NCBI GenBank assembly: GCA_944414825.1
Contig: CALYBN010000081.1
Span: forward strand, 1-34,481
From: an uncultured Rikenellaceae bacterium
GTDB taxonomy: Bacteria; Bacteroidota; Bacteroidia; Bacteroidales; Rikenellaceae
Reading direction: 5' to 3'
Length of the DNA stretch: 34,481 bases
Made by a program: the position numbers and the translations under genes. Below the pieces are notes generated by a model. The model ran no database searches. It was not told the origin of the DNA and worked only from the letters and a program-made list of their open reading frames with translations. Position 1 is the first letter of the stretch. Each line of letters begins with the position of its first letter. Below, in pieces: positions 14,417 through 34,479 of this stretch.

Positions 14417-15697
14417 CTACCAAGCAAAAAGCGGATACTGAGACATCATCGCCTCCACCTCCTTGGCCACGGCTGCAATCACCTCCGAATTCTCCGGATC
14501 GCTCAGCACCCGGTCGATCAGCGCTACGATGGCATCCATCTGATCCTCCTTCAGGCCTCGCGTGGTGATGGCCGGCGTACCGACCCGGATTCCCGACGTC
14601 TGGAACGGCGACCGCGTATCGAACGGCACCATATTCTTGTTGGTCGTGATCTCGGCTGCCACCAGAGCGATCTCGGCCTTCTTACCGGTCAGTTCCGGGA
14701 ATTTCGTACGCAGGTCGATCAGCATCAGATGGTTATCCGTACCTCCCGACACGATCTTATAGCCCCGTTTCACGAAAGCGGCGGCCATTGCCTGTGCATT
14801 CTTGATCACCTGCTTCTGGTACTCCTTATAGGCCGGCGTCAGTGCCTCGCCGAAAGCCACGGCCTTGGCTGCGATCACATGCTCCAGCGGACCTCCCTGC
14901 ACGCCGGGGAATACGGCTGAATTGAGCAGTGCCGACATCTTCTTGATCTCGCCCTTGGGCGTAGTCACACCCCACGGATTGTCGAAGTCACGCCCCATGA
15001 GGATCACACCGCCACGCGGCCCCCGCAGCGTCTTGTGCGTCGTAGAGGTAACGATATGAGCATATTTCACCGGATTGTCGAGCAGTCCGGCAGCGATCAT
15101 ACCCGCCGTATGAGCCATGTCGACCATGAAGAGTGCACCCACCTTGTCGGCAATCTCGCGCATACGTTTGTAATTCCACTCACGGCTATAAGCCGAAGCA
15201 CCGCCAATGATGAGTTTAGGCTTATGCTCTACGGCCAGTTTCTCCATGGCATCGTAGTCGATCATTCCGGTATTCTCATCGAGTTTGTAGCCTACAGCCT
15301 TATAGAACAAACCGGAGAAATTGACGGGCGAACCGTGCGAGAGGTGACCTCCGTGAGCCAAGTCAAGCCCCATGAAGGTATCGCCCGGTTTCAGGACAGC
15401 CGTAAAGACAGCCATATTGGCCTGTGCACCCGAATGGGGCTGCACGTTGGCATATTCCGCACCGTAGATCTCCTTCAGGCGATCGATGGCTAGTTGTTCC
15501 ACCTGGTCAACAATCTGGCAGCCGCCATAGTAACGGGCGCCGGGATAACCCTCGGCATATTTGTTGGTCAACACAGAACCCATCGCTTCCATCACCTGGT
15601 CGCTGACGAAGTTCTCCGAGGCGATCAATTCGATCCCGCGGAGTTGGCGCTGGCGCTCCTGGCCGATCAGGTCGAATATTTTAGTGTCCTTAGTCAT
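14417..15697 (-). CDS. glyA: Serine hydroxymethyltransferase
   Basis: Encodes 426 residues. GlyA is a PLP enzyme that interconverts serine and glycine while loading one-carbon units onto tetrahydrofolate. Visible motifs are [19 protein letters not shown]-x-R-Y-Y-G-G, the cofactor-binding D-M-A-H-T-A-G-M-I and [13 protein letters not shown], whose Lys binds PLP. The open frame runs on upstream to 16345, but that part has no family match and lies opposite fabG. The start M-T-K-D-T-K-I-F at 15697 is therefore used, and family length agrees. A -7-like TACCTTTA lies at 15739-15746. Confidence 0.97.
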
Positions 15698-15738
15698 AAT
15701 TGAGTTGGATAAGTTAATTGATTGTGGTTTCGTGAGCG

Positions 15739-15746
15739 TAAAGGTA
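15739..15746 (-). promoter_or_regulatory. Probable glyA -7 box
   Basis: Minus-strand TACCTTTA is one base off TAnnTTTG. The leader would be about 35 bases. No clear -33 element. Confidence 0.4.
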
Positions 15747-15844
15747 TAAAAAAAGTATCGAACCCGAAGCATCTTGCGGAATTTAAAACAACTCTGGCGG
15801 AAATGTATTAATTTTACAGAAGGAGGCGATTCAAAAAAAATTGT

Positions 15845-15852
15845 TATTTTTG
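15845..15852 (+). promoter_or_regulatory. fabG -7 box
   Basis: TATTTTTG matches TAnnTTTG and lies about 30 bases before the ATG at 15882. It is inside the longer open frame starting at 15774, which rules that start out. Confidence 0.6.
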
Positions 15853-15881
15853 CACATTCAAACACTAAAAACCATTTGATA

Positions 15882-16628
15882 ATGAAACTACTGGAAGGAA
15901 AAGTGGCTGTCGTGACCGGCGCTGCACGGGGTATCGGCAAAGCCATCGCGCTCAAATTCGCATCGGAAGGTGCCAATGTCGCATTCACCGATCTGAACGT
16001 CGACGATAACTTCAAGAACACCGAGAAGGAGATCAACGACCTCGGAGTCACCGGAAAAGGATATGTCTCGAACGCCGCCAACTTCGAAGATACGGCCAAC
16101 GTGGTCAGCCAGATTGTGAAGGATTTCGGCCGCATCGACATCCTGGTCAACAACGCCGGCATCACGCGCGACGGTCTGATGCTCCGCATGAGCGAGCAAC
16201 AGTGGGACATGGTGATCAACGTCAACCTCAAGTCGGCATTCAACTTCATCCATGCCGTAGCTCCCGTGATGGTAAAACAGCGCAGTGGCAGCATCATCAA
16301 CATGGCTTCGGTCGTAGGTGTATCGGGCAATGCAGGACAGGCCAACTACTCGGCTTCGAAAGCCGGTATGATCGGCCTGGCCAAGTCGATTGCCAAAGAA
16401 CTCGGGCCGCGCGGCATCCGTGCCAACGCCATCGCCCCGGGCTTCATCATCACCGACATGACCAACGCGCTGTCGGATGAGGTGAAAGAGGGCTGGGCTA
16501 AACAGATTCCGTTGCGTCGTGGCGGTACGCCGGAAGATGTGGCGAATGTAGCACTTTTCCTCGCTTCGGATCTGGCCGGCTATGTAAGCGGACAGGTGAT
16601 CCACTGCTGCGGGGCTATGAACTGCTAG
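15882..16628 (+). CDS. fabG: 3-oxoacyl-[acyl-carrier-protein] reductase
   Basis: Encodes 248 residues of a short-chain dehydrogenase/reductase. FabG performs the NADPH-dependent reduction of 3-oxoacyl-ACP in fatty-acid elongation. Motifs are the T-G-A-A-R-G-I-G nucleotide loop near residue 13, N-N-A-G, the catalytic Ser in M-A-S-V-V-G and Y-S-A-S-K for the Tyr/Lys pair, then P-G-F-I-I-T-D-M. The C-terminus is [12 protein letters not shown], with three Cys in the last residues where V-C-G-G-M is more usual. No other fab genes are nearby. The start is fixed by the -7 box at 15845 and by similarity. Confidence 0.93.
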
Positions 16629-20300: not shown

Positions 20301-22172
20301 CTAACGCTTCTCGGTCTGCCCCTCGTAAAAATTCACAAAGGCACGGCTCACCAGCCGGTTTCCACCCGGCGTGGGATAATCGCCCGAGAAGTACCAGTCG
20401 CCGCCATGTGCCGGACAAGCCTCGTGCAGCCCGGCAAGGGTCTGATAGACAACCTTCATTTCACACGGGCACCCCACCGGCGTGATCATCCGTGCAATCT
20501 GGGCCGAGATCTCCTCATCCGTGAAGGGAGCATAGATCTCCTTCACATAGTTGACACACTGCTCTTTGGGCAGATTCTCCTGAGCCTTGCATTTGCTGTA
20601 CACCTCGTCGATCACCGCCTGACGGCCGCTCGCACGCAGCAGTTCGATCGCCGCACCAAAGGCAATGAACTCGGCCATGCGCGACATGTCTATACCGTAG
20701 CAATCCGGATAGCGCACCTGCGGCGACGAAGAGACCACCACGATCCTGTGCGGACGCAGTCGGCTCAGGATCTTAACGATACTCTGCCGGAGGGTCGTCC
20801 CGCGCACGATACTGTCGTCAATCACCACGATCGTATCGCGGTCCGGGGTAATCGTCCCATAGGTGATGTCATAGACGTGCGTCGCCAGGTCGTTACGCGT
20901 ACTCCCCTCTGCGATGAAGGTCCGCAATTTGATATCCTTGACGGCCAGCTTCTCCGTGCGCACCCTATGTGCCAGCAGCCGCTCGACCTCCTCCCGCGAG
21001 GGGTGTTGCAGCGCCAGGATCTGCTCTGCCTTACGGGCATTCAGGTAGTTCTCCAAGCCCTCCATCATGCCGTAGTAGGCCACTTCGGCCGTATTCGGAA
21101 TAAACGAGAAGACCGTATGGTCCAGATCATGATCCACCGCCCGCAGAATCGGTTCGGCCAGCAGGCGTCCCAGGGTCTTCCGCTCCCGGTAGATATCGCG
21201 ATCGCTACCCCGCGAAAAATAGATCCGTTCAAAGGAGCAGGGTCTGGGGTGTTCGGCCGAAAGGATCTGCGAACGACTTACCCGTCCGTCCCGTTTCACG
21301 ATCAGGCTCTCCCCCGGTGCCAATTCTCGGACCTGCTCCGCATCGACATTCATCACGGTCTGGATCACGGCTCGCTCCGAGGCTGCCACCACAATCTCGT
21401 CGTCCATATAATAATGGGCCGGACGGATTCCCCACCGATCACGGAAAATGAACGAATCACCACTACCCGTCGCACCAACGATCACAAATCCTCCGTCCCA
21501 CAGTTGCGAAGCACGGCGGATGACGCTCTCCATGTCGAGGCTGCGCTCGATCCGCTCATTGAGCTCCTGCCCGCTATATCCCTCCGCTTTGTAGTGTTCA
21601 TACCAGTGCTGCACCTCTTCGTCCAGCAGATAGCCCAGTTGTTCGAGTATGATAAAGGTATCGGCATTGTGGCGCGGATGTTGTCCCCGGGCCACGATAT
21701 CGGCAAAAACCTCGTCGACGTTGGTCAGGTTGAAATTCCCGGCCAGGCAGAGGTTACGGCTCTGCCAGTTGTTGCGTCGCAGAAAAGGATGGGTATAGGA
21801 GATGCCCGACCGTCCTGTGGTGCTATATCGCAGATGCCCCAGGTAGAGCTCTCCCACATAGGGTTGCTCCGCCTCCGGTACTCCTTCGGCAGCCGCCTCG
21901 GCCATCGCCCGATGCGCCTCGCTGAACACTTCGCCGATCGCCCCGCTTCCCAAGGCCCGGCTCCGGAAAATATACTCCGCTCCGGGAGGAGTATCGAGTT
22001 TGACACACGCCATGCCGGCACCCTCCTGCCCGCGGTTGTGCTGCTTTTCCATCAGCAAGTAGAGGTTATCCAGGCCGTAGGAGGCTCTGCCATATTTTTC
22101 ACGATAATAAGAAAGAGGCTTCAGCAAGCGGATCAGCACGATCCCGCATTCATGTTTTATCGCTTCGCTCAT
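20301..22172 (-). CDS. Amidophosphoribosyltransferase family protein, long form
   Basis: Encodes 623 residues, longer than classical PurF (about 470-510). PurF transfers the amide of glutamine to PRPP, the first step of purine synthesis. Cys9 in H-E-C-G-I-V is the predicted N-terminal nucleophile, after an eight-residue propeptide. The glutaminase part shows Q-H-N-R-G-Q-E-G-A-G and L-G-H-L-R-Y-S-T-T-G. The phosphoribosyltransferase part has V-V-I-D-D-S-I-V-R-G-T-T near residue 450, the PRPP loop. The C-terminal extension has G-C-P-C and A-C-P motifs. This long form is typical of Bacteroidota; whether it is the main purine enzyme or a second copy cannot be decided here. Its promoter is at 22202-22209. 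Confidence 0.85.
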   Translation of the reverse strand: MSEAIKHECGIVLIRLLKPLSYYREKYGRASYGLDNLYLLMEKQHNRGQEGAGMACVKLDTPPGAEYIFRSRALGSGAIGEVFSEAHRAMAEAAAEGVPEAEQPYVGELYLGHLRYSTTGRSGISYTHPFLRRNNWQSRNLCLAGNFNLTNVDEVFADIVARGQHPRHNADTFIILEQLGYLLDEEVQHWYEHYKAEGYSGQELNERIERSLDMESVIRRASQLWDGGFVIVGATGSGDSFIFRDRWGIRPAHYYMDDEIVVAASERAVIQTVMNVDAEQVRELAPGESLIVKRDGRVSRSQILSAEHPRPCSFERIYFSRGSDRDIYRERKTLGRLLAEPILRAVDHDLDHTVFSFIPNTAEVAYYGMMEGLENYLNARKAEQILALQHPSREEVERLLAHRVRTEKLAVKDIKLRTFIAEGSTRNDLATHVYDITYGTITPDRDTIVVIDDSIVRGTTLRQSIVKILSRLRPHRIVVVSSSPQVRYPDCYGIDMSRMAEFIAFGAAIELLRASGRQAVIDEVYSKCKAQENLPKEQCVNYVKEIYAPFTDEEISAQIARMITPVGCPCEMKVVYQTLAGLHEACPAHGGDWYFSGDYPTPGGNRLVSRAFVNFYEGQTEKR

Positions 22173-22679: not shown

Positions 22680-24524
22680 CTACTCCACTGTCACCGACTT
22701 GGCAAGATTACGAGGCTGATCGACATCTCGCCCCTTGTTCACCGCAATATAGTAGGCCAGCAACTGCAAAGGCACGGAAACGACCAGCGGCATAAGACAT
22801 TCGGGAGCTGTCGGCACCTCGATGCAATAATCTGCAATGTTACGCACCACCGTATCCCCTTGCTCCACAATGGCGATAATTCTTCCGCCACGAGCCTTGA
22901 TCTCCTGTATATTGCTGACCGTTTTCTCATAGATGCTGTCCCGCGTCGCAATCGCAACAACCGGCATCTCACTGTCAATCAACGCGATTGGGCCGTGCTT
23001 CATCTCCGCAGCCGGATACCCTTCCGCATGGATATAAGAGATTTCCTTTAATTTCAACGCCCCCTCCAAGGCTGCCGGATAGTTGTATCCCCGCCCCAGA
23101 TAGATGAAATTACGAGCATAAGTGAACATCTTCGAAAAATCCCGAATCTGCGCATCGAGCTCTACGGCCTGCTCAATCAAAGCCGGCAGGTGCAACAACC
23201 CATTTGCAATCTCTCGGAAATGCTCCTCTCCGATCGTTCCCTTCGCACGCGCCAGCGTCAGCGCCACCATCGCCATCACGGTCACCTGCCCCGTGAAAGC
23301 CTTTGTCGAGGCCACGCCAATCTCCGGCCCCACATGAATATAGGCTCCGGAATCCGTTGCTCGCGCAATCGACGACCCTACCACATTACAAATCCCGAAG
23401 ATAAAAGCACCGTTCTTTTTGGCCAGTTCGACCGCTGCCAGCGTATCGGCCGTCTCCCCTGACTGCGAAACGGCAATCACTACATCGTCGGGACCGATCA
23501 CCGGATTCCGATAGCGGAACTCCGAAGCATATTCCACCTCAACCGGAATGCGGCACAAATCCTCGATTAGGTGTTCGCCGATCAGTGCGGCATGCCACGA
23601 CGTACCGCATCCCACAAAGACAATCCGTTTCGCCTGCAGGAAGCGCTCGCAATTGGCCATTACACCCGACAGCACTACATTGCTCCCGTCGGCCGCCACC
23701 CGGCCCCGGATGCAATCCACAATGGTTTTGGGTTGTTCGTGGATCTCCTTGAGCATGAAATGCGGATAGCCTCCCTTCTCAAGTTGGCTGATACTCAGTT
23801 CCAACTTTTTAATATCAACTCGTGACTCGATATTATCGAGGTTGACAATTTTCAAAGGTTTGTTCCGATTGATGACTGCAATCTCACCGTCATTCACATA
23901 GACCACCCGGTCGGTATACTCCACAATGGGCGTAGCATCCGAAGCCAGGAAATACTCCCCTTCGCCCACACCGATCACCATCGGGCTGCTCTTGCGGGCT
24001 GCGATGATCTCATCACAATTTCCTTTCTCTACCACAGCAATAGCGTAGGCCCCAACCACCTGTTTCAACGCCGACTGTACCGCTTCGAACAACGAACAGT
24101 TATTGGTCGTCTTCACATATTCGATCAACTGCACCAACACCTCGGTATCGGTACCACTCTTAAAAGTATAGCCATTCTCAATCAGAGCGTCCTTCAGCAC
24201 ACCATAATTCTCGATAATACCGTTATGGATCAGCGCGATGTTTCCCGATTCGGAATAATGCGGATGGGCATTCACATCATTAGGTTCCCCATGCGTTGCC
24301 CAGCGAGTGTGAGCAATACCGATATGTCCACTGACATCTTTCGACACCGTGAAATTCTCCAGGTCAGCGACCTTCCCGCGACACTTCTGCACATTCAACC
24401 GACCGTCGTCGCTCACCAGAGCGACACCGGCGCTATCGTAACCTCGATATTCCAGCCGATGCAGTCCGCTGATCAAAATGGGAAACGCCTCCCGATATCC
24501 CACATAGCCTACGATTCCACACAT
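22680..24524 (-). CDS. glmS: Glutamine-fructose-6-phosphate aminotransferase (isomerizing)
   Basis: Encodes 614 residues. GlmS makes glucosamine-6-phosphate from fructose-6-phosphate and glutamine, the entry step to UDP-GlcNAc for peptidoglycan and lipopolysaccharide. Cys2 in M-C-G-I-V-G-Y is the glutaminase nucleophile. H-R-L-E-Y-R-G-Y-D-S-A-G, H-T-R-W-A-T-H-G and the N-G-I-I-E-N block complete that domain. Two SIS sugar-isomerase domains follow, with C-G-T-S-W-H-A, S-Q-S-G-E-T-A-D-T and E-G-A-L-K-L-K-E-I-S-Y-I-H-A-E. The C-terminus K-S-V-T-V-E is normal. The leader is short (about 20 bases), so there is no room for a glmS ribozyme. Confidence 0.97.
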   Translation of the reverse strand: MCGIVGYVGYREAFPILISGLHRLEYRGYDSAGVALVSDDGRLNVQKCRGKVADLENFTVSKDVSGHIGIAHTRWATHGEPNDVNAHPHYSESGNIALIHNGIIENYGVLKDALIENGYTFKSGTDTEVLVQLIEYVKTTNNCSLFEAVQSALKQVVGAYAIAVVEKGNCDEIIAARKSSPMVIGVGEGEYFLASDATPIVEYTDRVVYVNDGEIAVINRNKPLKIVNLDNIESRVDIKKLELSISQLEKGGYPHFMLKEIHEQPKTIVDCIRGRVAADGSNVVLSGVMANCERFLQAKRIVFVGCGTSWHAALIGEHLIEDLCRIPVEVEYASEFRYRNPVIGPDDVVIAVSQSGETADTLAAVELAKKNGAFIFGICNVVGSSIARATDSGAYIHVGPEIGVASTKAFTGQVTVMAMVALTLARAKGTIGEEHFREIANGLLHLPALIEQAVELDAQIRDFSKMFTYARNFIYLGRGYNYPAALEGALKLKEISYIHAEGYPAAEMKHGPIALIDSEMPVVAIATRDSIYEKTVSNIQEIKARGGRIIAIVEQGDTVVRNIADYCIEVPTAPECLMPLVVSVPLQLLAYYIAVNKGRDVDQPRNLAKSVTVE

Positions 24525-24556: not shown

Positions 24557-24911
24557 CACTATTTTTGTCAGAGTACCTTTCACGAAAAGGTCAAAATATG
24601 CTCTTCACAACCACATCTCCAATACGGGCAAACCTTCTATAATCAGCACCGACGCAACAGACACAACCCCATCTTATCGAAAGGTCCAAGAAGAGAGAAT
24701 AAATAACCGGCCTGCAGAGTGTGATATTTTCAGTAAAAATGAAAAATATTTAACAAGTGTTCCGATTATCATTTTTTTGACATATATTTGTTGCGTAAAA
24801 AAGAGGGAAAATTTTTGTAATATATATTACTTTTTTGATTTTCCAGACATTTTTTCATATCTAATTGATAGTGAGTAAAATAAACAATAAACCCCTAATA
24901 TCATCGACAAA
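24557..24911 (+). promoter_or_regulatory. Upstream region of the giant PLP/P-loop gene
   Basis: No gene is seen. It becomes very A/T-rich from about 24725. TATATTTG at 24783-24790 fits a -7 box and would give a leader of about 115 bases. Inside that leader, 24817-24830 is a perfect 14-base palindrome, GTAATATATATTAC, embedded in A and T runs. It could be an operator or a weak hairpin. No -33 element is clear. Confidence 0.45.
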
Positions 24912-27900
24912 ATGAAGATAGTTGGTGAACCCAAGGCATTCTTAAGCAACGAAGCACTGCAACTGCTCGACCTGTACCGTTCGCTCGGCGAACGGGCGGA
25001 AATCTTCCTTCCACGCCACATCTACGACAACCTGACAAACTTTGTCAGCCTATGCATGGAAGAGCCCGACGACCCGGCCAAACAACAGGCCGAAATCAAC
25101 AAATATCTGCTGCGTTTTCGGGAAGACATCCCCGGATATGTGGACGTCTCGTTGATGCTCATCCCGCACAACAATTCCAAAGCGTTCGAATTAAGTAATC
25201 AGCGGGGCCGCTTCGTCCGCAAGATCGACGAATTGACCGACACCGACGGAACTACCACCGAACTGCGCACGTTACTGAAAAATATCCGCGACACGCATGA
25301 CTTCTCGGTCGGGACACCGCCCGTAAACAGTTCTCACATCGATTTCATGTCGCAATTGCAATTGGGCGGACATGTACGCGACTTGCGCAAATACCGTGAC
25401 GTGATCGGCGTAACGGGTGACCTAAATGAGGCCCATTGGAACTACATGATGGATACGCTGGAGCAGATGATCAGTCAGAGCACCCACTACACGACCAACG
25501 CCGAAAAGACCGACTTCCTGAACCGCACCTGCTGGACCGTCAATTTCAAAGGATTGAACGGTATGATCCGCACGGTCGTCTCGGGCAATGCCGACAAGGC
25601 GGTGGAGCTGCTCAAGGGCGACGTCTTCAGCAGTGCCTCTGTGGTTGTGGCAGACTCACCCTCGCCGGAAGATCTCTACGAGCGGATGACGACCGACACG
25701 ACCAGCATCTTCGTAGTAAAGGTACCGCATGTGCGCATCAACCACTACTCGGGAGAGAAGTGGTTCCCGCTGCTGACCCGTCTGGTGATCGTGGACAACT
25801 CGAAGGAGTCGCGCAGTTCGAACACCTCGCTGGTGTTCTGCTTCCACAACGGCATCATCAACACCCTGAATAAGGTACACACCAAGAAGTTGGGTTCGCC
25901 AGCCAACACGCAGTTGAACCTGCGTCTGATTCTCGAGAATGTGAACCCGTCCTACCTGAGTGAGTTCCGCGAGAAAATCGAGGCCCAGATCGCCGTCTAT
26001 GCCCGCGAGCTGGAGCAGATGCTCACCGAGCAGACGGGCAGCGTGGACAACATCGAAAAACGGATCACACTCTTCAAACTGGATGCCTTCTCGCGCCAGG
26101 TGGTGCAGGACAAATATTCGCTCGAGAAGTTGCGCGACTTCATCTTCTTCCTTGAGAATTGCCACCAGCCCGAAAGCAAGCAGATCCAGACCCAGGAACT
26201 GATCGACGAGTTTGAGAACCGGATGAAGCAGTACTTCTATGCCGGCAATAAATACATCGACATCGTGACCATCCTCGAGGGCGGCGGCCGCAACCAAATC
26301 CGCACCTTCGGGCAATACCTGCTGGGCCGCACGTTCATTGGGGCCAGCAGCAAGGTGCGTTATGCCTGTCGGCTGATCCTGGACATCATTCCGAGTTGCT
26401 ACGAGCGTACGGTGAAGAACCACTTCCACAAAAACTTCGGCATCAACCTGTTCCTTGAGAAATACAAGGAGTACATCACCAAAGTGGGCAAAGATGCCGA
26501 CAACAAGGGACGCTTCGAGAAGTTCCTGATCGACCTGGGCATCCGCGACAAATATTTCGCTCTGGGCGACGAGGACAAGGAGATCGTCAAGAACTTCATC
26601 TCGGCCTTGGGCAACCTGGACCAGACTTCAGTGTCGGACTCCGTACAGATGATCATCCGCGACCTGCTGTTCAATCCGAACGGCAGGCCCAAACCCTATA
26701 TTATCTATAATGCACAGCAGGCTTGGGAGTACAAGGACCTGTTGCCGGACGACTGCTTCGACGTCAATCCGTTCGACATCGAGATCGAAAATCACGAAGA
26801 TGGCCGGTTGGCTTACGACAGACTGGTGGACAAACTGCTGCGCATCAAATCTACGCTGTCGCTGTTCGATGAAAGCGGCTCTCTGTGGGATCTGTTCTGC
26901 GACAACACGACGATCGTAATCAACGACCCGAACAACCCGACGGGTTACACCGATTTCAACAGCGAGGCCGTCAATTCGTTCCTCAAGTTCCTCAATACGT
27001 CCAAGATCACGCTCTTCCTCGACGAGGCCTATGCCGAGAGCGTGAAGATCGAAGATCGCGAAATGCCCAAATGGAGGACCATCTCGCGCTACATCATGAA
27101 CAACATCAACGCCCAGTCGCGCATCAAGGCCATCTCGTCGCTCTCGACCACCAAGAACCTCTGCGCTACGGGTGAACGTCTCGGAGCCATCGCCACCACG
27201 CCGCAGGCCGCCGAATTCGCCGCCTATGCCCGCAAGTGCAACGAAGCGGAGCACGGCAACAACAACTCGCTGCTGATGCTCAACAACTCGCTGGAAACGG
27301 CACAGGAAGCCAAGAGCATCAAGGATACGATCGAAGCCAAGCTGCCGAAAAACGCCTCGCGCAGCAGCATCCGGAAAGTCATCGTCAACTTCATCAAGGA
27401 TCAGATTGACAAGACGGAACGCTACAACCGCAACAGCATCAGCAGCCAGCTGCACAAAACGGCCGGATTCGAAGGTTCGCCGCTCTACCTGTTCCTGTTG
27501 GACGAACTGGTGGCACTGGACAAGCTGGACGTACTGGGGCTGCCAGACGACTTCAAGTATCACGACGAGCCGTTCTTCAGTTACTACCAGAGCAAGCTGA
27601 TCAAGAACCTGAACAAGTTCCGCGTCAACAAGAACTTCCGCGAAGAGTCGCTCAAACGGCTCTCGATGGCCAAGAAGACAGCCCATCGGCTGCTGGAACA
27701 GTACGGAACGGATGCGCTGGAGGTAGTGGAGAGCGACGGCTCGTATCTGTTCAACTTCCGAATCAAGGGCCACCCGTCCTATGCCGATCTGCTGTCGTTC
27801 TGCAACTTCCTGGCCCGCAACCGCGGTATCGCAACGGTACCCTACCCCACAGGATTGGTACGTTTCGCAATCGGCGGCTACATCAGCGCCTCGAAAGAGG

Positions 27901-30900
27901 GCATGAAAATCTTCTCGGCCGAGGTGGAAGACGCCTTCTCGATCTTCATCAAATACTGGCTGCGCTTCGCCGAAATGCGAGCCGACGAGGCCAACAAGGA
28001 GGTGGATTCCAAGACGCTTCTGAGCCGAATCTTCAGCAGCGCAAAAGACAAGGAGTTCATCGAAACGGTCATCGCCGACTATGCCGCTTCGGCCAAGTAC
28101 AAAAAGGACAAGGCACCCTCGCTCCAGATCCGCGACGTGCGCTCGCTCTACCACGCCTCGCCGGAAAAGAGCGGCGTGACGATCACCACGATCGGCCGCT
28201 CGGCCAACTCGGTGATCGAACTGCACGGCGATCTGGTGGGTTCATGCTCCGATGTATTCGAATTCATCCGCAGCGCGGCCTTCACGAAGATTTACGAAAA
28301 CTTGTTGGCGCAAATTTACAAGCGCATCCCGGCGCTGGCCGACCTGGACTTCAATACGGTCAGCTCGCGCTACTCGAAGGCGGTGATTCTGAAATACATC
28401 ACCAACAAACGGACCTTCCAGCCCAATCACCACGTACTGGATAATCCGGAGGAGAAGAACATCATGCGCGAGGTGCTGATCGAGATGGAGAACCTGCTCT
28501 TCTCGGACAGCAAGATGAAGATCATGGCCATCAACGCCACCGGCAATCCGGCCCTGGACAAGGCCAAGTTGGAGGGTCTGAATGCCATCATCAAGAAGTA
28601 TATCCGCGAGATCCTGCTCCACTTCAACCTACCGTTCGAAAAGGAGAGCCTCGAACCGAGCCGCCGCGAGATCATCCGTACCGCCGGCGAATGCTTCGAG
28701 GAAATCACGGGCATCAAACTCACAGAGCTTAATCTCAACATCTGGGTCGACGAGTTCATGACTGGCCTGCGTGAGTTGCCCGAGTTCAGCAGCATCGCCC
28801 TCTCGCACAAAAGCATCGGATACATTCTCGATGCGATCGCCGACGGAGTGAACAAATCGGGTGAGGTGACCGACAAGATCCTCTACCTCTACCTGCTCAA
28901 CAACGACCATTCGTTCTACAAGATGGTATGCGCACGGCTGAAATACTTCAGCGACCGCATTGCAGCCTGTGAGGATGGCGAGATCCGGATGTTCACCGAG
29001 GAGTTCGTCACCAGCATCCTGCCCATGCAGTTGCAGGAGATCAGCAGCTACATCATGCGCAAGCGCGACATTAAGATCGCCGAAAACGAAATCTATGCCG
29101 TCAGCCGCAAGGTGGTGCGGTTCTATATCAGCCTCATCAAGCGGACCAAGGGTACGGACTACTACAACCGTTACGCCCACACGCTGGTGCGGATTGTTGA
29201 AACGGCTTTCCGCAAGCAGAACTCGAGCGTGAACGAGATGGTGCAGCACGGCATCTCGATCTACAAAGGCTTCACGATGGAGAACAAGGCACTCGAAACG
29301 TTCGAGGGAGGCCGCATCAGTTGGATCAACGAGTTGATGAGCAAGTGCGGCGTCATCAGTTCCGAGCAGCCCGTACAGGAGCACACCCGCATCGTGACCG
29401 ACGCCAAGAAGCGCGAATATCCGTTCCACAAGATCGACCGCGTGGAGCTGAAAAAACGCGAAGGCGAGCCCGATGCCGACAGTCCGGTCGACTACATCCG
29501 GTTCATCAACCCGCGTCCCGACTCGACGTTCTTCACCGAACGGCTGGCGCGCTTCGTGGCCAACATGGACTCGGACGACTATCGCTGCAAGGTGGTTAAA
29601 CACGGTATTGTGAAGGAATTGGTGATCTTCCAGAAGGGTTATCTGAAGTATCTGACCGACAACTACCGGCTCAACTACACGGAGGATATCCCGCTGGAGG
29701 CGATCCGCAATTTCGTGCCGGACGTGATCAGCCTGCTCGGCGCTCCCGAGAAATTGATCTCCTTCCCGCAGATCGGATATTTCGACATCAAGGGCCCCTC
29801 GGGCAACATCAAGACCATCGTCACCCCGCTCAAATCCGAAGCAGACTATTTCGGCGATGTGAAGAAACCGCGTCTGACCGTGATCAACGAAAAGGTGAAG
29901 GAGATGGGCGGTATTCCGCGTCACGGCTCACTGTTCCTGGTGGAGGAGAATGACGGAAGCGTCTTTGTAATCGAAATTAACGGTGACAGCGGCGTGGGCA
30001 AGAGCGAGATGATCGCAGCCTTCGTCCTCAAGTGGCTGAAGAACAATCTGGAAGGTATCCGTTCGGTGAAGATGATCGCCGGCGACATGTTCCACGAGTT
30101 CCAGGATGCCGAGGGAAATCTCTACGGCATCGGCACCGAGGTAGGCGACTTCTCCCGCACAACAGATTTCGACCCAGATTATATCAAATATTACAAATAT
30201 CTGTTCGAGAGCAGTGCCGACAGCAATGCCAGCGACCTGAACAAGCGCAGCACGGTGAGCGGCATGTGCGACATCACGATGCCCTATAAAATCGACATCA
30301 TGCTCAGCGCCAGCAACTACTCGAAGCAGGAGGCCGGCATCACCCGCGTGGACAATCCGGAAAACTTCCTGCTCTACATCGACGCCCACGGCGAACGCAA
30401 GGAAAAAGCGACCAGCAGCGACGGCCCCAACTTCCAGCGGACCTTGAAACGCTATACGGCCGACAAGAACATCGTCGATGTAATCGCCCGCCACGGCAAC
30501 TATCTGGACGATATCCTCGACTGGGATTTCAATCCGGCCGACCGGAACTACTACCTGGCCTCGTCATTCAAACTGCTCGACAAGATCGACGTGACGGAGG
30601 TCGTGAAGATGATCTTCGTGGGCAAGGAGTTCGCAGCCAACGGATTCAGGTATACGATCAAAGACGTGGCGTTCGACATGATCCAGAACCGGTTCATCGC
30701 CACCGTCTCCTACAAAGAGGGCGAAGAGGAGTTCGAAACCGACATGCTGCTCGACCGCAAGATCTTCAGTTCGATCTTCGACTCGATCGCCAGCACGCCG
30801 GGCGGACAGCCCTTCATCGCTGAAGAGGGTCAAGTGGAGTGCGTGAAGTCGCTGATCGACTGTCTGCGCGGCGGCAAGGACGGCAAGGGCAAGGCACGGT

Positions 30901-31610
30901 TCATCCAATGCGGCGTCCTCTCGACCGAGATCGGCAAGAAGGGCCGCGAGATCACCGGTCCGCAAAAAGCTGCCGCAGCCCTGAAGCAGTTGATCCAGGA
31001 GGTGCGTGTGAACAAACCCGAGATCAACGAGGGTAAGATCAAGGTGAAACGCCTGCTCAACGAGAAGTATCACCACATCTTCGGCGGCAACATGAACAGC
31101 AGCGAATTGTGGCGCTACAACTTCTACCTCTACCAGTTGGAAAACATGCGCAAGGCCGATCTGCGCCGCATGGACAACAAGAGCAAGCGGGTGGACATCA
31201 GCAATCTGGTGGATTTCGTGCCCGTGGACAAGAACAAGGAGTTCAGTCCGCTGTTGGTCAACCCCAACCTGAACATTGAGTTGAGCAGCTTCAGCGAGAC
31301 GTTCGAAGAGTTGATGAGCCTACCGAACTATCCGGATTTCGCCGAGGAGTTCGCAGCCCGTGTCGACAAACTCTATATCGCCGAAGGATACAGTCGCGAG
31401 ACCAACATCAACAACATGATCGTACAGTTGCTCATGATGGAGGATTACGTCTCGTCAGACGACATCGCACGCGGCAGCGTGATCGAGAAAGTGAACCGCG
31501 AAACGATCGCAGCAGCCAAATACGCCGTCGTACAGTTCCTCGCCGCAAAGGAGGCTGCCGAACCGAAGGTAAAAACAGAAACGGCTAAAAACGGAAAATC
31601 GAAAAAATAG
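24912..31610 (+). CDS. Giant PLP aminotransferase-like / HprK-PEPCK-like P-loop protein
   Basis: Encodes 2232 residues with no signal peptide or membrane segment, so it is probably cytoplasmic. Residues about 570-1000 match a fold-type-I PLP aminotransferase: N671-D-P-N-N-P-T-G, D704-E-A-Y, S-L-S-T-T-K748 (candidate PLP lysine), G-E-R756-L-G and R984 at the place of the carboxylate-binding Arg. Near residue 1691, I-N-G-D-S-G-V-G-K1697-S-E matches the HprK-type Walker A, followed by A-G-D in the place of an acidic metal ligand. Residues 1-570, 1000-1640 and 1900-2232 are mostly helical and unassigned; the tail is Lys-rich. Codon use is strongly biased to C/G-ending codons, suggesting good expression. 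The gene stands alone. The function is unknown. Confidence 0.85.
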   Translation: MKIVGEPKAFLSNEALQLLDLYRSLGERAEIFLPRHIYDNLTNFVSLCMEEPDDPAKQQAEINKYLLRFREDIPGYVDVSLMLIPHNNSKAFELSNQRGRFVRKIDELTDTDGTTTELRTLLKNIRDTHDFSVGTPPVNSSHIDFMSQLQLGGHVRDLRKYRDVIGVTGDLNEAHWNYMMDTLEQMISQSTHYTTNAEKTDFLNRTCWTVNFKGLNGMIRTVVSGNADKAVELLKGDVFSSASVVVADSPSPEDLYERMTTDTTSIFVVKVPHVRINHYSGEKWFPLLTRLVIVDNSKESRSSNTSLVFCFHNGIINTLNKVHTKKLGSPANTQLNLRLILENVNPSYLSEFREKIEAQIAVYARELEQMLTEQTGSVDNIEKRITLFKLDAFSRQVVQDKYSLEKLRDFIFFLENCHQPESKQIQTQELIDEFENRMKQYFYAGNKYIDIVTILEGGGRNQIRTFGQYLLGRTFIGASSKVRYACRLILDIIPSCYERTVKNHFHKNFGINLFLEKYKEYITKVGKDADNKGRFEKFLIDLGIRDKYFALGDEDKEIVKNFISALGNLDQTSVSDSVQMIIRDLLFNPNGRPKPYIIYNAQQAWEYKDLLPDDCFDVNPFDIEIENHEDGRLAYDRLVDKLLRIKSTLSLFDESGSLWDLFCDNTTIVINDPNNPTGYTDFNSEAVNSFLKFLNTSKITLFLDEAYAESVKIEDREMPKWRTISRYIMNNINAQSRIKAISSLSTTKNLCATGERLGAIATTPQAAEFAAYARKCNEAEHGNNNSLLMLNNSLETAQEAKSIKDTIEAKLPKNASRSSIRKVIVNFIKDQIDKTERYNRNSISSQLHKTAGFEGSPLYLFLLDELVALDKLDVLGLPDDFKYHDEPFFSYYQSKLIKNLNKFRVNKNFREESLKRLSMAKKTAHRLLEQYGTDALEVVESDGSYLFNFRIKGHPSYADLLSFCNFLARNRGIATVPYPTGLVRFAIGGYISASKEGMKIFSAEVEDAFSIFIKYWLRFAEMRADEANKEVDSKTLLSRIFSSAKDKEFIETVIADYAASAKYKKDKAPSLQIRDVRSLYHASPEKSGVTITTIGRSANSVIELHGDLVGSCSDVFEFIRSAAFTKIYENLLAQIYKRIPALADLDFNTVSSRYSKAVILKYITNKRTFQPNHHVLDNPEEKNIMREVLIEMENLLFSDSKMKIMAINATGNPALDKAKLEGLNAIIKKYIREILLHFNLPFEKESLEPSRREIIRTAGECFEEITGIKLTELNLNIWVDEFMTGLRELPEFSSIALSHKSIGYILDAIADGVNKSGEVTDKILYLYLLNNDHSFYKMVCARLKYFSDRIAACEDGEIRMFTEEFVTSILPMQLQEISSYIMRKRDIKIAENEIYAVSRKVVRFYISLIKRTKGTDYYNRYAHTLVRIVETAFRKQNSSVNEMVQHGISIYKGFTMENKALETFEGGRISWINELMSKCGVISSEQPVQEHTRIVTDAKKREYPFHKIDRVELKKREGEPDADSPVDYIRFINPRPDSTFFTERLARFVANMDSDDYRCKVVKHGIVKELVIFQKGYLKYLTDNYRLNYTEDIPLEAIRNFVPDVISLLGAPEKLISFPQIGYFDIKGPSGNIKTIVTPLKSEADYFGDVKKPRLTVINEKVKEMGGIPRHGSLFLVEENDGSVFVIEINGDSGVGKSEMIAAFVLKWLKNNLEGIRSVKMIAGDMFHEFQDAEGNLYGIGTEVGDFSRTTDFDPDYIKYYKYLFESSADSNASDLNKRSTVSGMCDITMPYKIDIMLSASNYSKQEAGITRVDNPENFLLYIDAHGERKEKATSSDGPNFQRTLKRYTADKNIVDVIARHGNYLDDILDWDFNPADRNYYLASSFKLLDKIDVTEVVKMIFVGKEFAANGFRYTIKDVAFDMIQNRFIATVSYKEGEEEFETDMLLDRKIFSSIFDSIASTPGGQPFIAEEGQVECVKSLIDCLRGGKDGKGKARFIQCGVLSTEIGKKGREITGPQKAAAALKQLIQEVRVNKPEINEGKIKVKRLLNEKYHHIFGGNMNSSELWRYNFYLYQLENMRKADLRRMDNKSKRVDISNLVDFVPVDKNKEFSPLLVNPNLNIELSSFSETFEELMSLPNYPDFAEEFAARVDKLYIAEGYSRETNINNMIVQLLMMEDYVSSDDIARGSVIEKVNRETIAAAKYAVVQFLAAKEAAEPKVKTETAKNGKSKK

Positions 31611-31624
31611 CTCACTTGTGGGGC

Positions 31625-31672
31625 AATAAATGCAGAAGGCGTCGGCTAATGCCGACGCCTTCTGCATTTATT
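31625..31672 (+). terminator. Long hairpin after the giant gene
   Basis: The arms at 31625-31646 and 31651-31672 are perfectly complementary over 22 bases around a TAAT loop. The stem starts 15 bases after the stop. There is no separate T-run, but the A/T ends form part of the stem. Confidence 0.85.
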
Positions 31673-32810: not shown

Positions 32811-32818
32811 TATCTTTG
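32811..32818 (+). promoter_or_regulatory. -7 box of the YpsA/SLOG-family gene
   Basis: TATCTTTG matches TAnnTTTG. It overlaps an in-frame ATG at 32816, so translation must start downstream at 32849 or 32852. Confidence 0.65.
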
Positions 32819-32848
32819 TTTCTTACAACAAACTCGGCCCCTACACAC

Positions 32849-33364
32849 ATGATGACGCCTAATTTAAAATCCGTGGCCTTCACCGGCCACCGCACCTTCA
32901 AGATGCAGCGAGGTGCACCTTCACTTTTCGATCGGCCCGAAAGTCCACAAGCATTACGCGAACGATTATCGCACCTGTTACGAGGTCTGATCGAGCAGGG
33001 TTACACCCGATTTCTGAGCGGCATGGCCGAAGGGTTCGACCTGCTGGCAGCAGAGGCGGTGCTGGCCCTGAGAGTTGAGTACCCCAACATTCAATTGGTA
33101 GCTGTGATTCCCTTCGCGGGACAGGCGCAACACTTCGCTCCGGAGGTCCGCAAACGTTACCAGGCAGTGCTGGAACAAGCCAACCAAACCATTACCCTGT
33201 CGCAACACTACTCTGCAGATTGTTTCCACCGCCGCAATGACTATCTGGTCGAACAGGCCGATCTGTTGGTGGCTTACTACAACGGCACGCAAGGAGGTAC
33301 GGCTTATACTGTCCGACTGGCGAATCGGCACGGCATCACCGTCATCAATCTTGCCTCTGCCTAA
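32849..33364 (+). CDS. YpsA/DUF1273 SLOG-family protein
   Basis: Encodes 171 residues. Motifs are V-A-F-T-G-H-R-T-F, G-Y-T-R-F-L-S-G-M-A-E-G-F-D-L-L-A-A-E near residue 50, V-I-P-F-A-G-Q and the C-terminal V-A-Y-Y-N-G-T-Q-G-G-T-A-Y-T-V segment. Together they define the SLOG Rossmann-like fold, which binds nucleotides or nucleotide-derived ligands. In Bacillus the relative YpsA affects cell division, but the biochemical role is unclear and need not be the same here. The gene is isolated, with its own promoter and a terminator shared with gapA. Two adjacent ATGs (32849 and 32852) are equally possible starts. Confidence 0.85.
   Translation: MMTPNLKSVAFTGHRTFKMQRGAPSLFDRPESPQALRERLSHLLRGLIEQGYTRFLSGMAEGFDLLAAEAVLALRVEYPNIQLVAVIPFAGQAQHFAPEVRKRYQAVLEQANQTITLSQHYSADCFHRRNDYLVEQADLLVAYYNGTQGGTAYTVRLANRHGITVINLASA

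Positions 33365-33471: not shown

Positions 33472-34479
<1,008 letters not shown>

Follow-up and report, generated by a model that had tools for sequence, protein, structure and literature searches.

The described enzymes closest to the protein reported here belong to two groups, the class I/II aminotransferases (PF00155), which are pyridoxal phosphate (PLP) enzymes, and the phosphoenolpyruvate carboxykinases (PEPCKs) of the canonical PckA type (PF01293), which use oxaloacetate and phosphoenolpyruvate (PEP). The P-loop superfamily of the PEPCKs also includes HprK, which acts on HPr. We know of no organism in which a single polypeptide converts an amino acid to an enol-phosphate. Likewise, nothing was found in the open-access literature on an architecture joining a PLP aminotransferase to a PEPCK-like module, in agreement with the original prediction for this locus, which knew of no characterised enzyme with such a pairing. 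Here we analysed 34,481 nt from an uncultured Rikenellaceae bacterium (assembly GCA_944414825.1, contig CALYBN010000081.1; this whole stretch is called the window), which contain a giant gene:

24912-31610, plus strand: whole giant coding sequence, 2,232 amino acids (aa), defined by its ATG start, the open reading frame (ORF) call and about 60 full-length homologues

In the encoded protein, as in every full-length relative, two complete-looking active sites stand in one conserved chain, one of the PLP aminotransferase type and one PEPCK-like. Both folds are known; the fusion, a large insertion and the PEPCK branch are undescribed as far as the libraries show. We tentatively propose that the giant protein is a soluble bifunctional metabolic enzyme in which a 2-oxo acid links the two sites.

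The ORF is intact and uninterrupted by stops, and the gene occurs as a single copy in its own genome (1.9 Mb, 64%-complete). The predicted cytoplasmic location is matched by the lack of any membrane-like segment, as Kyte-Doolittle means over 19 residues reach 1.25 at most. A bias towards codons ending in C or G had been noted, and the G+C content at third codon positions (GC3) is indeed 0.80, compared with 0.60-0.74 for ten neighbouring genes. It is also above the GC3 of the GAPDH gene in the window, a type of gene that is often highly expressed. In an alignment of 60 sequences, with up to half of the residues differing, 395 positions of the window protein are invariant, and their share is highest in the catalytic modules, at 21% and 27%. 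These data support a functional chromosomal gene, and not a decaying one, for one conserved polypeptide with both folds under purifying selection.

The N-terminal half carries the aminotransferase, with the following features:

25134-25478, plus strand: first aminotransferase segment, residues 75-189 (in most top-ranking rows the structure alignment starts at about residue 72-81)
25479-26591, plus strand: insertion of about 370 aa, residues 190-560 (model, structure alignment, conservation)
26592-27986, plus strand: main aminotransferase segment, residues 561-1025 (Pfam, model, structure alignment)
26922-26945, plus strand: PLP-ring motif NDPNNPTG, residues 671-678, with N675 corresponding to N194 of aspartate aminotransferase (AspAT) (invariance)
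27153-27155, plus strand: K748 at the Schiff-base lysine position, with S745 and R756 spaced as expected (profile alignment, invariance)
27861-27863, plus strand: R984, corresponding to the alpha-carboxylate-binding arginine (AspAT R386; equivalence by motif order)

The family PF00155 (Aminotran_1_2) matched residues 667-797 (E 2.4e-9, 37.3 bits against a cut-off of 19.7) and was found in 47 of the 47 N-half relatives scanned. The residues N671, N675, D704, Y707, S745, K748, R756 and R984 are invariant in 60/60 homologues, so that the five PLP positions named at the outset (N671, D704, K748, R756 and R984) hold throughout. The complete PLP residue set is thereby kept, comprising the Schiff-base lysine, the aspartate for the pyridine nitrogen, asparagine and tyrosine for O3′, and the arginines for phosphate and carboxylate. 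By inspection, the sequence HDFSVGTPP within residues 75-189 resembles the S-x-G-x-P motif at the N-terminus of class I enzymes.

An AlphaFold2 model of residues 1-1060 (pLDDT 83.7, pTM 0.83) aligned in VIA-align with the class I aminotransferase 1x0m (Z 15.1, root-mean-square deviation (rmsd) 3.2 Å, 382 residues aligned), placing a PLP fold around K748 as anticipated. The aminotransferase had been assigned to residues 570-1000, whereas the modelled fold starts near residue 75, is interrupted by residues 190-560 or so, and ends near 1022; according to the model, the N-half is a complete fold-type I, class I aminotransferase fold. Its top Foldseek matches include the aspartate/tyrosine/phenylalanine aminotransferase 2x5f and other aspartate aminotransferases, and a library of viral structures returned generic PLP-fold matches only. 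An identity as aspartate 4-decarboxylase (AspD, TIGR03801) was rejected, with TIGR03801 absent from the NCBIfam matches and an hhalign E value of 2e-4 compared with 2.5e-8 for ordinary aminotransferases; nothing pointed to it beyond the resemblance that aminotransferases share in general. Three highly conserved stretches (496-526, 673-678 and 706-721) were modelled with low confidence; they may need the other half of the protein, but a shallow alignment would explain the low confidence just as well.

The insertion includes an alpha/beta part (about 210-345), a helical part and the invariant motifs EGGGRxQI (456-463) and NHFHKNFG (503-510). In a class-level sample of 295 genomes it was seen only together with the giant protein, never in a free-standing form.

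The C-terminal half contains the second module between two helical regions:

27987-29252, plus strand: middle region, mostly helical, residues 1026-1447, without a family match (C-half model)
29253-31022, plus strand: PEPCK-superfamily module, residues 1448-2037 approximately (Foldseek, structural and profile alignments)
29847-29867, plus strand: Y1646-FGDV-K1651-K1652, corresponding to PckA Y207/K212/K213 (profile alignments, invariance)
29922-29924, plus strand: H1671, corresponding to the Mn ligand H232 of PckA (profile alignments, invariance)
29982-30005, plus strand: Walker A motif GDSGVGKS, residues 1691-1698, corresponding to GLSGTGKT of kinase-1a in PckA (profile alignments, invariance)
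30081-30086, plus strand: G1724-D1725, corresponding to PckA D268-D269, with the Mn ligand kept and the Mg-associated aspartate replaced by glycine (profile alignments, invariance)
31023-31607, plus strand: C-terminal helical region, residues 2038-2232 (C-half model)

The module had originally been described as carrying an HprK-type Walker A. That motif, G1691-D-S-G-V-G-K-S-E, is present, its lysine K1697 is invariant in 60/60 sequences, and the fold belongs to the PEPCK/HprK superfamily; the module is nevertheless closer to PEPCK. In a model of residues 1045-2215 (pLDDT 73.6, pTM 0.59), the 50 best Foldseek matches were all PEPCKs (9e35: E 4.5e-4). VIA-align placed 271 residues on PEPCK 9e32 (Z 7.3, rmsd 4.2 Å) over model residues 436-992, thus over both lobes, at modest model confidence, whereas HprK 1knx aligned over 129 residues only (Z 6.8, rmsd 10.8 Å). 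A Z score under 8 is middling on its own, and the assignment was made because the Foldseek matches are uniform and the residue pattern agrees. Profiles of a free-standing family described below allowed PckA Y207, K212, K213 and H232 to be equated with Y1646, K1651, K1652 and H1671, and K254, T255, D269 and R333 with K1697, S1698, D1725 and R1779, all of them invariant; the offset of the Escherichia coli PckA numbering to the PckA alignment is consistent. Hence the Mn ligands K213/H232/D269 are kept as K1652, H1671 and D1725, alongside the P-loop lysine. Directly compared, the giant and canonical PckA profiles are in register around the P-loop (E 1e-3, a single-comparison value). The best PDB profile match was an ATP-PEPCK over the Y-G-K-K...H...P-loop stretch, with E values of 0.4-1.9 that serve as register evidence only, and a Pfam scan gave no PF01293 match in the giant protein. 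With both PEPCK lobes aligned and the Mn-ligand triad retained, HprK identity was rejected; the HprK label reflects the resemblance of the Walker A, while, taken whole, the module is PEPCK-like.

The closest relative of this module is a free-standing family of about 580 aa in other Bacteroidales (L077-L082, L084, L085, L136, L137 and L138; for instance L077:1294-3021 and L078:1294-3027, both on the minus strand). Values of E 2e-23 and 6e-25 in hhalign make its homology to the giant module secure. Compared with canonical PckA, the family is in register around the P-loop (E 2.7e-4, again from a single comparison), and all its PF01293 matches are sub-threshold. In each of two genomes (G133 and G019), one copy lies directly and codirectionally upstream of a PEP carboxylase gene, confirmed by PF00311, and the second copies adjoin a fructose-bisphosphate-aldolase-like gene (this gene, and the AsnB- and RidA-like genes below, were named by N-terminal sequence resemblance only). 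These neighbours tie the module type to PEP/oxaloacetate and gluconeogenesis, and the family is a candidate for an uncharacterised PEPCK or a partner of PEP carboxylase. Giant and free-standing forms never occurred in the same genome in our samples, numbers too small to give mutual exclusion any meaning.

Relatives of the giant gene were found at 59 loci in the bacterial genome collection, and most of them span the full protein; identity over the best segment is 74-93% for Rikenellaceae and Odoribacter and 48-56% for environmental Bacteroidales. The distribution is patchy. In systematic samples, 29 of the 200 genomes from the family carried the giant, 17 of the 295 from the order carried it at full or near-full length, and among the 395 from the phylum there were two carriers in a single other family. 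In the midpoint-rooted gene tree, branches mostly follow taxonomy; the placement of the two outside genomes among environmental Bacteroidales tentatively suggests some horizontal transfer. A phage origin was dismissed, as no relatives were found in viral contigs by a scan that needs close peptide matches. The last 100 aa or so also occur as short separate ORFs. Two of these (88-105 aa) match only this part, L083:1480-1794 (minus strand) and L033:17307-17570 (plus strand); the latter has a second RidA-like gene nearby and may be what is left of a duplication.

The gene is solitary, and the comparison of neighbourhoods that had been recommended showed neighbours changing from clade to clade, so that no conserved operon partner could be named. 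An association with PEP carboxylase was discarded, this enzyme being absent from all giant-bearing Bacteroidales genomes tested. The features around it in the window are:

22680-24524, minus strand: GlmS-like gene
24783-24790, plus strand: TATATTTG, candidate Bacteroidetes-type -7 box, 121 bp before the ATG (consensus match only)
31625-31672, no strand assigned: perfect 22-bp inverted repeat with a 4-nt loop just after the stop, likely terminator hairpin (repeat search)
32816-33364, plus strand: gene for a YpsA/DprA-like protein
33472-34479, minus strand: GAPDH gene

The repeat, a strong hairpin, supports the terminator that had been proposed for the gene. Of the promoter proposed with it, the candidate -7 box remains, while a sigma-70 scan returned promoter-like sites at chance level only; judged from the sequence, the gene likely has its own promoter. 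The Bacteroidetes -7 box, TANNTTTG, is over-represented in the window as a whole (29 sites, 12 expected). No Rfam family matched in the window. Farther upstream, a 623-aa protein with only weak class II glutamine amidotransferase matches (20301-22172, minus strand) adjoins the GlmS-like gene, and the SHMT ORF (14417-16345, minus strand, 642 aa) matches SHMT from residue 218 and probably has a late true start.

The original prediction had left the function open-ended, between an ATP-driven modification, a switch and a scaffold; our inference favours a bifunctional metabolic enzyme. Both sites would be catalytic and would work in sequence, linked by a 2-oxo acid such as oxaloacetate. At the PLP site, an amino acid would be interconverted with the corresponding 2-oxo acid, which would then move on to the PEPCK-like site. 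There its enol form would be phosphorylated with ATP and Mn2+/Mg2+; CO2 may or may not be lost in this step, and the sequence may instead run backwards. The insertion and the helical middle region would tether the two sites to each other, and an effector may bind there. Because canonical PEPCK uses oxaloacetate and PEP, and aspartate aminotransferases are among the structural matches, the simplest pair would be aspartate to oxaloacetate to PEP in either direction, as a channelled aspartate aminotransferase plus PEPCK. One environmental clade adds a point in favour: an AsnB-like gene, linked to aspartate chemistry, precedes the giant gene by 137-310 bp in the same orientation, and a RidA-like gene follows closely. 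The more specific form, in which a transaminase site passes the 2-oxo acid through a channel in the protein and the single chain turns an amino acid into an enol-phosphate by means of PLP and ATP, is possible at best.

Several observations weigh against a sequential enzyme of this kind. The Mg-associated D268 of PckA is G1724 in 60/60 sequences, and R65, which binds the substrate carboxylate, falls at the invariant E1485 in the sole alignment obtained, which is weak there; the invariant R1493 nearby could stand in for it. The site need therefore not be for oxaloacetate, and another substrate is nearly as likely. The substrate specificity of the aminotransferase is not readable from sequence. 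Nearly all well-sampled relatives with the giant gene have a canonical PckA too, which would make PEPCK activity itself redundant and speaks against the giant as a replacement for a missing PckA. No gene partner is conserved across clades. The C-half model is of modest confidence, with the conserved stretch 1744-1838 poorly modelled, and since the halves were modelled separately, any contact between them is hypothetical.

Some of these points suit a different bifunctional enzyme, a biosynthetic one whose PLP module would supply an unusual 2-oxo acid or amino acid for phosphorylation by the PEPCK-like module, with aspartate, oxaloacetate and PEP uninvolved. The loss of D268 and the uncertain R65 equivalent mean that the classical oxaloacetate pocket may be gone, canonical PckA coexists, the patchy distribution fits an accessory pathway, and the strongest NCBIfam match, far below its cut-off, is GntC, a PLP cyclodehydratase; yet conserved biosynthetic neighbours are lacking. 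We regard this explanation as uncertain, though nearly as likely as the first. Less probable is a nutrient-sensing regulator, with the PLP site sensing an amino acid and the PEPCK/HprK-type site acting as protein kinase or phosphatase. HprK is in the same superfamily and appears among the VIA-align rows, large regions of the protein are non-catalytic, and free-standing relatives beside PEP carboxylase could regulate that enzyme. However, HprK superposes poorly compared with PEPCK, a pure sensor would not require every catalytic PLP residue to be invariant, and the full Mn-ligand triad is retained; this regulator is unlikely because PEPCK-specific, not HprK-specific, features are kept. A scaffold or storage protein derived from two degenerate enzymes, for which the great size and the lost D268 might speak, is highly improbable given that neither site varies at its catalytic positions and that invariance peaks in the two catalytic modules.

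The giant protein represents a conserved family that would join amino-acid and PEP-type chemistry in one chain. Homologues are carried by gut and environmental Bacteroidales, Alistipes sp. dk3624 among them, and an Alistipes genome that has the gene is complete. The protein also leads to a divergent, as yet unnamed PEPCK-superfamily branch with free-standing members beside PEP carboxylase. If the activity of the proposed bifunctional enzyme is real, a step would be added to the amino-acid/PEP/oxaloacetate node of gut anaerobes.

Compared with known systems, the giant protein shares fold and motif order with the PF00155 aminotransferases, the AspAT residues N194/D222/Y225/S255/K258/R266/R386 being represented by N675, D704, Y707, S745, K748, R756 and R984; it differs from them in its insertion, in a longer stretch from the lysine to the C-terminal arginine and in the P-loop fusion. 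With PckA it shares the fold over both lobes and the residues equated above, T255 being a serine; unlike PckA, it lacks a Pfam-level match, has glycine for D268 and an uncertain R65 equivalent, is fused to a PLP enzyme and coexists with a true PckA. The PPi-dependent PEPCK 8e1u is also large, has a PEPCK fold and is among the structural matches (Z 6.3, 331 residues aligned), but no sequence similarity was found at E values up to 10, on which ground this identity was ruled out, and we know of no PLP half in that enzyme. HprK has a P-loop of the same superfamily and a similar Walker A but consists of a small catalytic domain only, without the second PEPCK lobe or a PLP half. The free-standing family is homologous over giant residues 1552-1837 or thereabouts has the module motifs in common with it and keeps the DD pair; it differs in lacking the PLP half and in the location of two copies beside PEP carboxylase.

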